The position numbers and the translations under genes were made by a program. The notes beneath the pieces are model-generated. The model did no database searches and was not told where the DNA came from. It saw nothing but the letters and a program-made list of their open reading frames with translations. A DNA stretch of 24,616 nucleotides from a virus, in the IMG/VR virus record IMGVR_UViG_3300010885_068468, positions 1-24,616 of that record; one strand, 5' to 3'. Every line of letters starts with the position of its first letter. Position 1 is the first letter of the stretch. Of this stretch, positions 1,624 through 21,657 are shown one piece after another.

Positions 1624-1631
1624 TATTTATT
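1624..1631 (-). promoter_or_regulatory. T4-type late promoter octamer AATAAATA
   Basis: On the minus strand this reads AATAAATA, one base from the T4 late consensus TATAAATA. It lies 34 bp upstream of the alanine-rich gene's ATG, giving a predicted leader of roughly 30 nt. It stands back to back with the plus-strand octamer at 1634-1641. Confidence 0.5.
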
Positions 1632-1633
1632 AT

Positions 1634-1641
1634 GATAAATA
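1634..1641 (+). promoter_or_regulatory. T4-type late promoter octamer GATAAATA
   Basis: GATAAATA sits 27 bp before the gp25 ATG, with the ribosome site GGAG (1657-1660) between them. It differs from TATAAATA only at the first base. It is the likely start of the main baseplate operon. Confidence 0.5.
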
Positions 1642-1668: not shown

Positions 1669-2082
1669 ATGAGTTTAGTAACGAATACAATAACAATAGA
1701 ACAAAAAAAATATACTGATATTGATATGAATTTTACTATGAACATAGGAAATAATGACATATACAAAAAAAATGATGAAGAGGCAATAAAACAGTCAATA
1801 AAAAATCTTATAATGCTCAAACCTTTCGATAGACCTTTCAATCCTATGTTGAGCAGTCAGGTGAGCGAACTTTTGTTTGAGTTGTGGACACCTCTTACAA
1901 AGATATCTATGAAGCGTGTAATAAATGATGTATTGGAGGCATATGAGCCTCGGATTAAAGTAGAAAATATAGATATAAGTGACCAGAGCGACAGAAATCA
2001 AATAGATGTTACGTTATATTTTACAATAGTAAATACTTCAAAAAAAGTACAATATTCTATATTATTATCTAGAATAAGATAA
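1669..2082 (+). CDS. 25: Baseplate wedge subunit gp25
   Basis: This 137-residue protein is the usual size for gp25 (132 in T4). Family features are in order: an N-terminal YTDIDMNF strand, a central DEEAIKQSIKNLIML helix, then RPFNP, a LFELW segment and the conserved EPRI motif near residue 93. The C-terminus carries beta strands (IDVTLYFTIV). gp25 belongs to the GPW/gp25 family. In the baseplate it forms the wedge core with gp6 and gp53 and touches the sheath-initiating end of the tail. GGAG ends 8 nt before the ATG, and a late-type octamer lies just upstream. The stop codon overlaps the next octamer, ahead of gp6. Confidence 0.93.
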   Translation: MSLVTNTITIEQKKYTDIDMNFTMNIGNNDIYKKNDEEAIKQSIKNLIMLKPFDRPFNPMLSSQVSELLFELWTPLTKISMKRVINDVLEAYEPRIKVENIDISDQSDRNQIDVTLYFTIVNTSKKVQYSILLSRIR

Positions 2083-2088
2083 TAAATA
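2081..2088 (+). promoter_or_regulatory. Late promoter octamer AATAAATA at the gp25 stop
   Basis: AATAAATA starts inside the gp25 stop codon (TAA 2080-2082) and lies 39 bp before the gp6 ATG. It would give gp6 and the downstream wedge genes their own late transcript. The position is good, but chance matches are common in DNA this AT-rich. Confidence 0.4.
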
Positions 2089-6292: not shown

Positions 6293-6300
6293 AATAAATA
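6293..6300 (+). promoter_or_regulatory. Late promoter octamer AATAAATA before the inserted fibre-like gene
   Basis: AATAAATA lies in the 60-bp gap after the gp7-like gene, 38 bp before the next ATG, with AGGA (6330-6333) between. This is one of the few real gaps in the operon, consistent with a separate late start. Confidence 0.45.
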
Positions 6301-6338: not shown

Positions 6339-6998
6339 ATGAAAGATTCAGTTAGAGCAATTGGCGAATTAAATATTGTAAAATATGACCAATTTGGAAA
6401 TATAGTTGAAGATATAACTGTACCTAATATGGTAGTGACTACAGGTTTAAATCTTATCGCAACTAAATTACATGATGCATCAAATGCTACTCAAATTGGG
6501 TGGATGGAAATTGGTTCTGATACAACAATACCAGTTCTAGGCAATACTGTACTGACTTCCCCACTGACTAAAGTTACTACAACATCTTCTAGTGGTAATG
6601 TATCGAGTATTGTTGTAGTCAATGCTACGGGACTTGTAGCAGGACAAACAGTTTCTGGCACAGGGATTGTAAGTGGCACTAGAATTGATGCCTCATATGT
6701 TTCTGGTACTACAATACCACTTACTTCTGCAACATCAACTCTTTCTGTTAATGCTACAATAACATTTAATCTTTCAAGAGTTGCTTTGACTACTACAGGT
6801 GGGGTAATAACTGCAGGAACATCTGCTACAATATATACTGCCACATATGCTGCAGGTGTTGCAATTGGAGCATGGACTGAAGCAGGATTGTTCACTGCAG
6901 CATCTGCAGGAACTATGTTAAGTAGAACAACATTTCCTGTAATAAATAAAGGTCTTTTGGACAGTATTACTGTTTCTTGGACATTAACAATTTCTTAA
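6339..6998 (+). CDS. Fibre-like virion structural protein inserted between gp7- and gp8-like genes
   Basis: This 219-residue beta-rich protein starts with a charged segment (GELNIVKYDQFGNIVEDI). VVTTGLNLIATKL and MEIGSDTT follow, a beginning recurrent in phage tail-fibre and virion proteins. The C-terminus (WTEAGLF, then TMLSRTTFPVINKGLLDSIT) fits the same class and suggests one compact beta domain. Residues ~85-140 are an inserted GQTVSGTGIVSGTRI unit of the kind repeated four times in the next gene. Without it the core would be about 150 residues. A late-type octamer and AGGA precede the ATG. It probably decorates the baseplate or a short fibre; the exact role is not known. T4 has no gene at this place between 7 and 8. 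Confidence 0.7.
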   Translation: MKDSVRAIGELNIVKYDQFGNIVEDITVPNMVVTTGLNLIATKLHDASNATQIGWMEIGSDTTIPVLGNTVLTSPLTKVTTTSSSGNVSSIVVVNATGLVAGQTVSGTGIVSGTRIDASYVSGTTIPLTSATSTLSVNATITFNLSRVALTTTGGVITAGTSATIYTATYAAGVAIGAWTEAGLFTAASAGTMLSRTTFPVINKGLLDSITVSWTLTIS

Positions 6999-7019: not shown

Positions 7020-10000
7020 ATGACAATTAAATCTATTGCAACTACCAATATATATAATACAATCGCTGAGTCTGTTTATGATGAATTGCTGACATCTAGT
7101 TCGATATTTTATACCTATATTGGTAGAATAATGGATTATGTTGGCACAGAAAACATTGCATTAGACAATAAAAAATATGAAAATATAGTAAGAAATAATA
7201 TTGTATATTTGAAAAGAGTTAATCTCAATGATATTTCTCATGTAATAAAAAGAATAGATTGGAATAATGGAACAATATATGACATGTATGATGATGAGTA
7301 TCATGGTGGAAGTATATCAGGTATAACTATTGAAAATAGTGGGTCAGGATATAGTGCATCTACTGTTGCATATGTTGATGGTGGAAAAGGAAGGAATGCT
7401 GATATTTCTGTCAATGTATCTCCTTTCGATGGAAGTATATCGGGATTTACTATTAATGATGCTGGTGTTGATTATTCCAGTATTCCTACCATTAGTGTTG
7501 TTGGCACTGGCACAGGTGCTTCTGCTACTGCAGTTCTTTCTAGTTCATATACTACACATTCTGGTGCTTCTACTTTGAGAGGAGCAAATTTTTATGTATT
7601 GACCACCGAATATAATGTATATAAATGTTTAGATAATAATAATAATGCTATTTCTACAATAATGCCAGCAAAAACGGCTCTTGATCCATTTATATTGGCA
7701 GATGGATATATGTGGAAATTTATGTATCATATTCCTGCATCATTGAGAAAGAAATTCTTGACACTACAGAATATACCTGTATTTAATGTATTAACTTCTG
7801 GATTTTATAGTAATGGAGGAATAGATTATGTTTCTGTGACAGACGGTGGAAGTGGATATACATCTTCTGGATCTGAAGAATTATATGTTGTTGGCGATGG
7901 AACAGGAGCAGTATTATCTATGCATGCGTCTGCAGTAAGTAAAGAAATTTCTTCTATAGATATAGCAAATAAAGGCATAAGATATTTGTCTGATACAAAC
8001 AGAAATATAATTTCTATATCAAAATCTACTGTTTCTAGTGTATGTACTTTGACAATAACTACAGAATATAACCATAGGTTGGTAGTTGGCGTTAGTATAA
8101 CAATTTCAAATGCTGATAGTGATTATAATGCAACTTATATTGTAAATACTATTACAAGTCCGGATGTATTTACAGTAATTAAAACTGTAAATGGTACTGG
8201 AAATGTTGATACACCATATGGTATGATCGGAAGAATTACTTCTGCAATTAATATTCAAAGTGTGCAAATAGTAGATAATATTGCTACTGTTACTACTGTG
8301 TCTGCTCATTCATATAATGAAGGTAATATAGTAAGTATAGTAGGTACTAGTATTTCTGCATTTAATACAAAACATATTATAGAAAAAATAAATAATTCTA
8401 CATCATTTACTATTTCTTTTGTTGGTTCCGGAAGCAGCAATATTGTTGGTAATGTTATACAAGCAGATAATTGTATAAATTCATTTTCAAGAACATCTAA
8501 TATAATCACTCTTTCAACAAAAAATGTCCATAATTTTTTCGCTCCATTAACTATTTCATCTGTTTCAGTTGCAACAAATATTGTTACTGTAACTTCTAAT
8601 GATCATGGTTTGCGTAATGGTCATGTTGTAACCATTACAGGTACTACTTCGTTTGATATATCAGCAACAACAATTTCATCTGTGACAGCAAACACTTTCA
8701 CATATTCTAAAGTGACCTCTGGTTCAGCCGAGACTGTTGGGTATATAAATTGTCCAGTAAATATTACCAATTTGAATGGGTATACAGGTACTGCATATAG
8801 TATTATTAGTGTTGTGAATAGTAAAAGTATAACATTTTCATTAGTTGGATCAGATGCATCTTTAACTAATCCTGCAGCATTACTGACATATAAAACAACT
8901 TTAAGAATATCTGCGGCTGCTTCGAGTGGGATAGGAAAATATGTTGGTAATACCACTGCAGTATTAGAGCCAAATGTTCAATTAAAAAGAGGATTTGATT
9001 ATACTGCAGTACCTACTATAATAATCCCTGATGCTAATGGTACATATGCAAACTTTACGGGACAATGTGGAGAATCTTCTGCATTTACTGGTATAAGTAA
9101 TTATGTTTCTCAGTTTGTTGGTTCTATAAGTGGTGGTACAAATCAATTAGTGATTACTTCAGTTTCTAGTGGAGTTATTTTAGTTGGTCAGACTATTAGT
9201 GGTAATGGAATTACAGCAGGAACTACAATAACTGGATTTGTTTCTGGTACAAATGGAAATTCTGGCACATATACAGTAAGTACAAATCAAACTTTTACGT
9301 CTACTACTATATATGGGTATATAGGAAATAATGTATCTTTTGTTGCAGGAATTGCTACAACTGGTGTTATGACAATATCTACAATAAATTCTGGTGTTGT
9401 TATTATAGGACAAACTGTAACAGGAGCTAATATTGCAATTGGGACTACGATAACTGGCTTTGTTTCTGGTATAAATGGTGGGGTTGGTGTATATACGTTG
9501 TCGTGGAGTCCTACTGTTGCCATTGTTGTTGGTACTGTAGTTGTTGGTAGTATTGTAACCAATAAATTATTAGTCACTGCAAAATCAAATGGTACAATTA
9601 CTGTAGGACAAACAATTTCTGGTGTTGGAATCACAGCAGGGACTACAATAACAGAATTTCTTTATGGTACAATTGGTAGTGTTGGTATATATTCTATTAG
9701 TTCTACACATAATATTTCTTCTGCAGCAATTACAGCAACAAAAAATAATAGTATATTAACTGTTAGTGCAGTATCTGGTGGTACTATTGAAATTGGTCAA
9801 ACAATTGCTGGTACAAATATTATAAGTGGTACAATAATTTCAGGATTTATTTCTGGAACATTAGGTGGTACTGGTACATATAATATAAATAATTCCCAAT
9901 TTTTCTCCAGCACTAGTATTACTGTTTCTGCTACTGTTACCGTAACAAAAACTGCAGATTATATATCAAATATAACTATTGCAAAAGCTGGGAGTGGTTA

Positions 10001-20027: not shown

Positions 20028-20513
20028 ATGTCAATAATTATTGGATCTAATAGTGGGAAAAGTATAACCTATCATGATGGGTCTTTAGCATATTCCCCTT
20101 TCGAATACTCGACAACTCCATTGAGTGCTACTGGAACTTCCACCTACCGATATAGATGGTTTCCACCCGATAAAAATTTAAAATACTTGTTATTTTTTTC
20201 TGCCGTATTTAGCATTCCTGCTGGTCAACCCAATGGAACTACACTGGCACAAATAAGCATGACATGCGAGTATCCAGGCTCGATTAATATTGACCATGCC
20301 GTTTATCTTTCTAATGTTATATATGCACACGGTAATTGGAGTACAACTATATCATTTCAAATGAATTTAGATACTAAAATAATGACAAATAATAATACTA
20401 CTACCCTAGATTCTATTCTATTTACAATGATTGACTACGGGACTACTGGTTCTTTTAATATTACTGACTCAAGTTTTACTATGATAAATATGGACTATAT
20501 CACTCCACCGTAA
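20028..20513 (+). CDS. Small virion protein, function unknown
   Basis: This 161-residue protein is unrecognised. It has a good ribosome site (AAGGGATAAAAATG). The sequence is beta-rich with aromatics (TYRYRWFPPDKNLKYLLFF, then HGNWSTTISFQMNLD) and no helices or catalytic motif of note. It may be a paralogous-style fibre-tip or decoration protein like the two genes before it. It is the last gene of this plus-strand run. Its stop lies five bases from the stop of the oppositely oriented lysozyme, with no hairpin between, so transcripts probably run into the lysozyme as antisense. Confidence 0.6.
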   Translation: MSIIIGSNSGKSITYHDGSLAYSPFEYSTTPLSATGTSTYRYRWFPPDKNLKYLLFFSAVFSIPAGQPNGTTLAQISMTCEYPGSINIDHAVYLSNVIYAHGNWSTTISFQMNLDTKIMTNNNTTTLDSILFTMIDYGTTGSFNITDSSFTMINMDYITPP

Positions 20514-20518
20514 AAATT

Positions 20519-20968
20519 TTATTTATATTTCCCTGACACCATTTGTTCTTCTAATTCCTTACTTCTTTTTCCTACTTGAGAATACCATGCAGAATCTTTC
20601 ATTTGTTCTGCAGCGGTATTCCAGTCATTATTTTCTATTGCAATATGTAATTTTTTAAATTTCATAAAAGTATTGATTCCCATATTGAATGTCATATTGA
20701 TACATATGTCCTTTCTTGGAGAATCTGGCATCAGAGAAAAATATTTCCAATTTTTTATCAAAGAAGATATTGCAACATTTATGTCATATATCAGAATTTC
20801 GTTCGCAAGGACTTTCGAAACAGGTTCTGAAATTATTTTTCCGTTATATGAAGGGTTTGCAATAACATTTCTTCCATATGCAATAGTTTTCTTACCTGCC
20901 GTACACAAATAAAATTTTGCAGAAAATCCTTCGTGAATTTTTAATTGCTCTATTAATTTTGGATTCAT
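20519..20968 (-). CDS. e: T4-type GH24 lysozyme (endolysin) with Cys in place of the catalytic Asp
   Basis: The 149-residue protein is a T4-lysozyme-family muramidase (T4 gpe has 164). Landmarks are HEGFSAKFYLCTAGKKTIAY at the start, NMTFNMG (T4: NMVFQMG) and SAWYSQVGKR (T4: SRWYNQTPNR). It cuts the MurNAc-GlcNAc bond of peptidoglycan. The catalytic triad of the family is E-x8-(D/C)-x5-T. Here it is E13, C22 and T28, so T4's Asp20 is a cysteine, a variant also known in P1- and lambdoid-type endolysins. There is no signal or SAR segment, so release should need a holin, which is not in this window. It has its own late promoter 35 bp upstream (21003-21010). Lysis is the likely role; a virion-bound entry lysozyme is less likely. 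Confidence 0.92.
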   Translation of the reverse strand: MNPKLIEQLKIHEGFSAKFYLCTAGKKTIAYGRNVIANPSYNGKIISEPVSKVLANEILIYDINVAISSLIKNWKYFSLMPDSPRKDICINMTFNMGINTFMKFKKLHIAIENNDWNTAAEQMKDSAWYSQVGKRSKELEEQMVSGKYK

Positions 20969-21002
20969 ATATTATTCTCAAACTTTTTTGATGTCTATAT
21001 AA

Positions 21003-21010
21003 TATTTATA
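21003..21010 (-). promoter_or_regulatory. Consensus late promoter TATAAATA for the lysozyme
   Basis: This is a perfect T4 late octamer on the minus strand, 34 bp before the lysozyme ATG, with an expected leader near 30 nt. It shares two bases with the plus-strand octamer at 21009-21016. Confidence 0.65.
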
Positions 21011-21016
21011 TAAATA
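21009..21016 (+). promoter_or_regulatory. Consensus late promoter TATAAATA for the right-hand operon
   Basis: This is a perfect T4 late octamer on the plus strand, 37 bp before the ATG at 21054. With the minus-strand copy it makes the 14-bp palindrome TATTTATATAAATA (21003-21016). Confidence 0.65.
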
Positions 21017-21053
21017 GATATAATAATACAAATACAATAGAGAAATTCTTTAT

Positions 21054-21395
21054 ATGTCGAATACACAAAATTTACAAATAGATCAGGGAATAGATTATAG
21101 TAGAGAAATGACTGTTTATGATATGAATAAAAATGTTTTCCAGTTGAATGGATATACCGGAAAGGCACATATAAAAAAATCGTTCACTTCTCCTACATTT
21201 GTTGCGTTTACTGTAACAGTGACAGATGCTCCCAATGGTAGAATGAAAATTTCTCTTACTCATTTACAGACAGAAGCATTGACTGCAGGAAATTATGTGT
21301 ATGATATATACATAAAGAATTTTAATGGCTCGTCATATAAAATAGTAGACGGTATTATTAGTGTAATACAAAGCGTCACTAAATATAGTGCATAA
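21054..21395 (+). CDS. Ig/BppU-N-like small virion protein
   Basis: The 113-residue protein has the beta-sandwich pattern seen at the start of phage upper-baseplate (BppU-like) and related proteins. IDQGIDYSREMTVYD comes first, then TGKAHIKKS, then GRMKISLTHLQTEALTAGNY and VYDIYIKN, ending in IVDGIISVIQSVTKY. Such domains usually anchor receptor-binding proteins to the baseplate or bind another virion part. It is the first gene after the consensus late promoter at 21009, and the ribosome site is weak. The fold assignment is by pattern and the role is inferred. Confidence 0.7.
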   Translation: MSNTQNLQIDQGIDYSREMTVYDMNKNVFQLNGYTGKAHIKKSFTSPTFVAFTVTVTDAPNGRMKISLTHLQTEALTAGNYVYDIYIKNFNGSSYKIVDGIISVIQSVTKYSA

Positions 21396-21398
21396 ATA
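21391..21398 (+). promoter_or_regulatory. Late promoter octamer CATAAATA across a stop codon
   Basis: CATAAATA contains the stop TAA (21393-21395) of the preceding gene and lies 31 bp before the next ATG, with AAAGGA at 21416-21421. The spacing suits an internal late start. Confidence 0.4.
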
Positions 21399-21429
21399 TA
21401 TATATATAATAACTTAAAGGAAATTTATA

Positions 21430-21657
21430 ATGAATGAAGATAATTTACAAGTAATTTTAAATGAAATTGTTCCGTTAATATTTACAACAAAAGGAAATAT
21501 TCCAATTTCAGAATTGGAATATTCTAATAGTTGGGAAGACACAGAAACATATACGAAATTTACTGAAACATATACATATAATGGCGAAATTGTGAAAAAT
21601 GGTTCCCATGTATATAGCAAAATTAGTTTTGGAACTATTGCTGGACTTGGCGGATAA
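21430..21657 (+). CDS. Small acidic protein, function unknown
   Basis: The 75-residue acidic protein is unrecognised. It has a strong ribosome site, AAAGGA, eight bases before the ATG. The N-terminal half is a short helix followed by IPISELEYSN. The middle is Thr/Tyr/Glu-rich (TETYTKFTETYTYN) and the end is Gly-rich (FGTIAGLGG). It sits between two likely virion genes in one transcription unit. No membrane segment or catalytic motif is seen. A small adaptor is possible. Confidence 0.6.
   Translation: MNEDNLQVILNEIVPLIFTTKGNIPISELEYSNSWEDTETYTKFTETYTYNGEIVKNGSHVYSKISFGTIAGLGG

Follow-up and report, generated by a model that had tools for sequence, protein, structure and literature searches.

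A perfect 14-bp palindrome between divergent lysozyme and tail-fibre assembly genes of a T4-like virus fragment probably packs two late promoters back to back

A perfect 14-bp palindrome, TATTTATATAAATA, at positions 21003-21016 of the window (the whole stretch of viral DNA analysed here, 24,616 nucleotides) very probably represents two ordinary T4-type late promoters arranged back to back within a short gap between divergent genes. The palindrome is exact, reads the same on both strands and occurs as a single copy in the window, and it is made of two perfect copies of the T4-type late octamer TATAAATA, which point outward and overlap by 2 bases. This layout belongs to a known class that recurs in T4 and many of its relatives at unrelated gene pairs. 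The window itself is a fragment (24.6 kb) of a T4-like virus with gp25-like and gp6-like genes, and its gp6 product shared about 40% identity with its counterparts in HTVC008M, Melnitz and Mosig. The gap and the genes beside it contain the following features:

20519 to 20968, minus strand: phage lysozyme (endolysin-like), 149 aa; Pfam Phage_lysozyme PF00959, E 1.3e-9; phrog_7 endolysin, E 9.3e-13
21003 to 21016, no strand: 14-bp palindrome TATTTATATAAATA, two late boxes with TA in common
21003 to 21010, minus strand: putative late-promoter box TATAAATA that would serve the lysozyme gene, whose ATG at 20968 is 34 nt away
21009 to 21016, plus strand: putative late-promoter box TATAAATA that would serve the 21054 operon, whose ATG at 21054 is 37 nt away
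21054 to 21395, plus strand: L-shaped tail fibre assembly-type protein, 113 aa; phrog_3304, E 4.5e-20; phrog_1084, E 7.8e-25

The gene at 21054-21395 opens a rightward operon, and its product was 34-44% identical to proteins of Mosig, HTVC008M, Melnitz and cyanophages.

The T4 late promoter consists of an 8-bp box and lacks a -35 element (PMC2988020). The box NATAAATA is shared by T4 and cyanophages (PMC2988020, PMC2984593, PMC1524935), it is the late-promoter consensus in cyanophages (PMC2984593), and by the T4 convention it lies at -13 to -6 (PMC1524935). At 34 and 37 nt, the boxes lie a short way upstream of the lysozyme and tail-fibre assembly start codons, which fits late promoters of late-type genes. 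If the T4 convention is applied, transcription would start near 20997 on the minus strand and near 21022 on the plus strand, about 25 bp apart, and the predicted leaders would be about 29 nt on the lysozyme side and about 32 nt on the 21054 side, in agreement with the leaders near 30 nt each way given in the preliminary description. The 12 bases 3' of each box are AT-rich (GATATAATAATA on the plus strand and TTATATAGACAT on the minus strand), which fits a T4-type late promoter. Sigma70-like sites near the palindrome showed no excess over shuffles (12 vs 14.2), so early promoters were not invoked. We propose that host RNA polymerase carrying a gp55-type late sigma would use both copies of TATAAATA, one for leftward transcription of the lysozyme gene and the other for rightward transcription of the tail-fibre operon. 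Such a layout would economise space, with one short melt-prone AT stretch serving two late operons. The 24.6-kb fragment encodes no known gp55, and the proposed sigma factor is therefore taken over from relatives.

Expected copies of TATTTATATAAATA in the window averaged 0.01 in dinucleotide shuffles and 0.009 under a Markov model, which confirmed the earlier statement of a perfect 14-bp palindrome at 21003-21016 with about 0.01 copies expected by chance. The octamer TATAAATA was not enriched in this AT-rich window (9 observed vs 10.5 expected), so the evidence is placement and not copy number, and octamer counting was dropped. This lack of enrichment, together with the many octamer copies that fall within genes, is what speaks for chance in AT-rich DNA, by which one or both octamers would have no promoter role; but orientation, distance and gap were right at both divergent gaps of the window, and the arrangement recurred in relatives, so that we consider chance extremely unlikely.

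Beyond the palindrome, NATAAATA was found 27-39 nt before 7 gene starts in the window, which were all 4 divergently arranged genes and 3 others. The further boxes, and the gp25-like gene, are as follows:

1624 to 1631, minus strand: candidate late-type box AATAAATA, forming the left half of the second pair, 34 nt from the start codon of gene 996-1589
1634 to 1641, plus strand: candidate late-type box GATAAATA, forming the right half of the second pair, 27 nt from gene 25 (1669)
1669 to 2082, plus strand: baseplate wedge subunit, T4 gp25-like; phrog_261, E 6.1e-37
2081 to 2088, plus strand: candidate late-type box AATAAATA, 39 nt upstream of the gp6-like gene at 2128
6293 to 6300, plus strand: candidate late-type box AATAAATA, 38 nt before the gene at 6339
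21391 to 21398, plus strand: candidate late-type box CATAAATA, 31 nt before the gene at 21430

The window has only two minus-strand genes, and each of them has a box exactly 34 nt from its ATG. It also has only two divergent gaps, and both carried an outward back-to-back pair of boxes. The second gap (1590-1668) lies between gene 996-1589 and the gp25-like gene, and its boxes are 2 bp apart and form no perfect palindrome. The chance of finding both boxes in a given gap of 79-85 bp was 0.0002 under the whole-window Markov model and 0.002 under an intergenic model. The outward pair of the second gap, which is absent from the preliminary description, gives independent support for promoter pairs. 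Judged from the sequence, the pair at 21003-21016 is more than chance, and its reading as promoters is well supported. An alternating TA run (21399-21413) was also seen immediately 3' of the CATAAATA box, between 21395 and 21430. Gene 996-1589, which diverges from gene 25, encodes an alanine-rich protein of 197 aa that gave no match in Pfam and PHROGs searches.

A perfect palindrome in an intergenic gap could also be an operator or the site of a dimeric protein (a repressor, an origin or a DsbA-like AT binder) that merely resembles two promoters, and T4 DsbA does bind AT-rich sites overlapping two late promoters (PMC2988020). However, the symmetry ended exactly at the two octamers: the flanks TTATATAGACAT and GATATAATAATA are asymmetric, and symmetry reaching past the promoter boxes, as expected of a dimeric operator, was not found at 21003-21016. 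The same single boxes also stood at the same distance before non-divergent genes, and the two boxes of the second divergent gap made no perfect palindrome, all of which renders an operator very unlikely. As the symmetry is confined to the boxes, there is no further symmetric element to explain. The palindrome follows from the packing of the boxes. Two back-to-back copies of TATAAATA can overlap with both octamers kept whole by only 2 or 4 bp, because TA and TATA are self-complementary, and either overlap automatically makes the site perfectly palindromic, over 14 or 12 bp respectively.

The reading as two late promoters was compared with T4, RB69, RB49, JS98, Acj133, Mosig, HTVC008M, Melnitz, C48C1, MED4-213 and P-SSM4, as well as with the first 199 kb of Ochrobactrum phage OC and with three contigs from IMG/VR. 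In 14 of the 15 further T4-like sequences, boxes in the right orientation 20-45 nt upstream of genes were at least as numerous as those in the wrong one, and usually several fold more so (22 vs 3 in T4, 13 vs 1 in Mosig and 20 vs 0 in P-SSM4). Genes were called in this comparison as simple ATG-based ORFs, so a single distance from box to ATG may be inaccurate. Few or no such box pairs were present in HTVC008M, G010 and some cyanophages. For the related pelagimyophages, an earlier study was unable to predict late promoters satisfactorily (PMC7029224), and the relative Melnitz was reported to have genes for a transcription coactivator, a clamp resembling gp45 and a sigma70-like protein (PMC9004378). 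These comparisons suggest that NATAAATA late promoters reach the uncultured T4-like lineage of the window. The preliminary description had proposed two overlapping late promoters for the divergent pair, and this was borne out by the same octamer class and the same distance at other genes, by the second gap and by the relatives.

Short divergent late gaps of T4-like phages had two geometries, in which the boxes were either back to back or facing. The closest example of the window layout is the late-promoter pair at 116450-116461 of T4 (NC_000866), in the gap between genes 26 and 51, and likewise that in the same gap of RB69, JS98 and Acj133. As in the window, two consensus TATAAATA boxes lie there back to back and form one perfect palindrome, in a divergent gap of 47-50 bp. 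The differences are that the overlap is 4 bp and the palindrome 12 bp (2 bp and 14 bp in the window), that the box-to-ATG distances are 15-21 nt, and that the genes are those for baseplate hub and hub assembly. The 12-mer, TATTTATAAATA, was found once each in T4, RB69 and JS98 and twice in Acj133, and all five copies were in divergent gaps, four of them at 26/51. The second Acj133 copy lies between inh and uvsW (protease inhibitor and helicase), also with overlap 4. The window has the same outward overlapping boxes in one short divergent gap, but its gene pair, lysozyme/21054, is not orthologous to 26/51, which means the same kind of layout at a different locus. A back-to-back pair with spacing 4 was also present beside the gp25 operon of phage OC. 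Facing pairs were found at T4 4/53, T4 inh/segD, inh/uvsW of RB69, JS98 and RB49, in C48C1 and in others. T4 4/53 and inh/segD and RB69/JS98 inh/uvsW share with the window one short divergent gap with two late boxes, but these boxes face each other across 6-8 bp, whereas those of the window point outward. The inh/uvsW gap itself varied, being facing in RB69, JS98 and RB49 and a back-to-back palindrome in Acj133. From this comes a simple rule, that divergent late genes of T4-like phages often share one short two-box gap, with either a 2/4-bp overlap or facing boxes. It is an easy annotation aid, and T4 26/51 is a ready system for testing late-promoter interference. Our search of the literature on divergent, overlapping or back-to-back late promoters gave no description of the layout; most subscription journals were outside its coverage, so this is no proof of novelty.

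The exact 14-mer TATTTATATAAATA was also found in relatives. Its sole copy in the Mosig genome lies, with overlap 2, in the divergent gap Mosig_00081/Mosig_00082, which differs from the window in its metabolic-type genes and in having its plus box no more than 5 nt from the annotated ATG; one of the two Mosig boxes may therefore be idle. An unbiased scan of viral contigs for the 14-mer gave further cases. A gene like Mosig_00081, with the 14-mer in its gap, was present in contigs L202 (minus-strand gene, 93% identical) and L179 (53%), where the divergent partner was not that of Mosig. In four T4-like IMG/VR contigs (L191, L204, L210 and L253), whose gene-4 proteins were only 49-86% identical to one another, the 14-mer lies in a divergent late gap, as in the window, between the head-closure gene 4 and the tail-tube-cap gene 48. 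These contigs differ from the window in the genes served and in the called minus-side distances of 5-7 nt, which may reflect ATGs placed too far upstream. Across the broad sample of viral contigs, most of which were not T4-like, tight divergent gaps accounted for 13/108 cases of the 14-mer vs 9/110 of its mirror ATAAATATATTTAT; this weak difference over all contigs indicates that the 14-mer is not special outside T4-like phages. The mirror failed as a neutral control, being two facing boxes itself and having two matches before gene 4. In contigs L410 and L383, the mirror palindrome replaces the back-to-back form before gene 4. Contig L227, an AT-rich and unrelated viral sequence, has the 14-mer at 9364-9377, flanked by an endolysin-like gene on one side and by a gene of unknown function on the other.

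The preliminary description had further suggested that lysis and fibre transcription exclude each other as a built-in balance switch. The exclusion is very likely from the geometry, and the purpose-built balance found no specific support, since other gene pairs share the overlap. In T4 the activated late complex carries the clamp at its upstream end, where its footprint is 13 bp longer (PMC2988020). With this clamp-extended footprint two complexes could not sit together, so simultaneous occupancy of both boxes is probably impossible, and with inferred starts about 25 bp apart the site would hold a single polymerase at a time. In a balance switch, selection would have favoured the overlap for the competition it creates between lysozyme and fibre transcription, which would set lysis timing against fibre supply. 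The exclusive geometry and the lysozyme and fibre genes that do flank the site agree with it. However, the same or a tighter palindrome was found at pairs that have no part in lysis, namely baseplate hub/hub assembly (T4), head closure/tube cap (the four marine contigs), metabolic genes (Mosig) and protease inhibitor/helicase (Acj133). Facing boxes elsewhere would exclude equally, and inh/uvsW has either geometry. If the promoters clear fast, exclusion alone would couple the two rates weakly. The homologues of the 21054 gene in relatives were not beside a lysozyme gene; those in Mosig, HTVC008M, Melnitz, C48C1 and the cyanophages sit in same-strand gene runs. Exact-DNA and protein searches found no relative that keeps the lysozyme/21054 pair, and a profile of the 21054 homologues as search query was dropped as too variable. 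Exclusion would be generic to any genes, facing pairs included, so it gives no argument for a dedicated lysis/fibre switch, which is not specifically supported and which we regard as improbable. Under the reading as two ordinary late promoters, exclusion would be a by-product common to all such gaps.

Another idea starts from T4, in which the nicked strand decides the direction that is activated (PMC2988020), and by this logic equal boxes in the two directions would make the site a sensor of replication polarity. The orientation of the replication sliding clamp would then pick the direction of each firing and apportion lysozyme vs fibres; we consider this use of the symmetric pair improbable.

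Two minor observations concern the surroundings of these sites. An extra TATAAATA occurs on the minus strand at 20520-20527, at the 5-bp junction where the lysozyme gene converges with the fibre gene 20028-20513; it points antisense into that fibre gene and may be there by chance. At the other end of the window, the first 2001 bases (1-2001) were identical to part of IMG/VR contig 3300027749_006206 (G008; L036/L043; 18,247 bp), which adds about 16 kb of upstream sequence from the same virus and includes a gene-48 homologue, before which facing late boxes were found with spacing 16.
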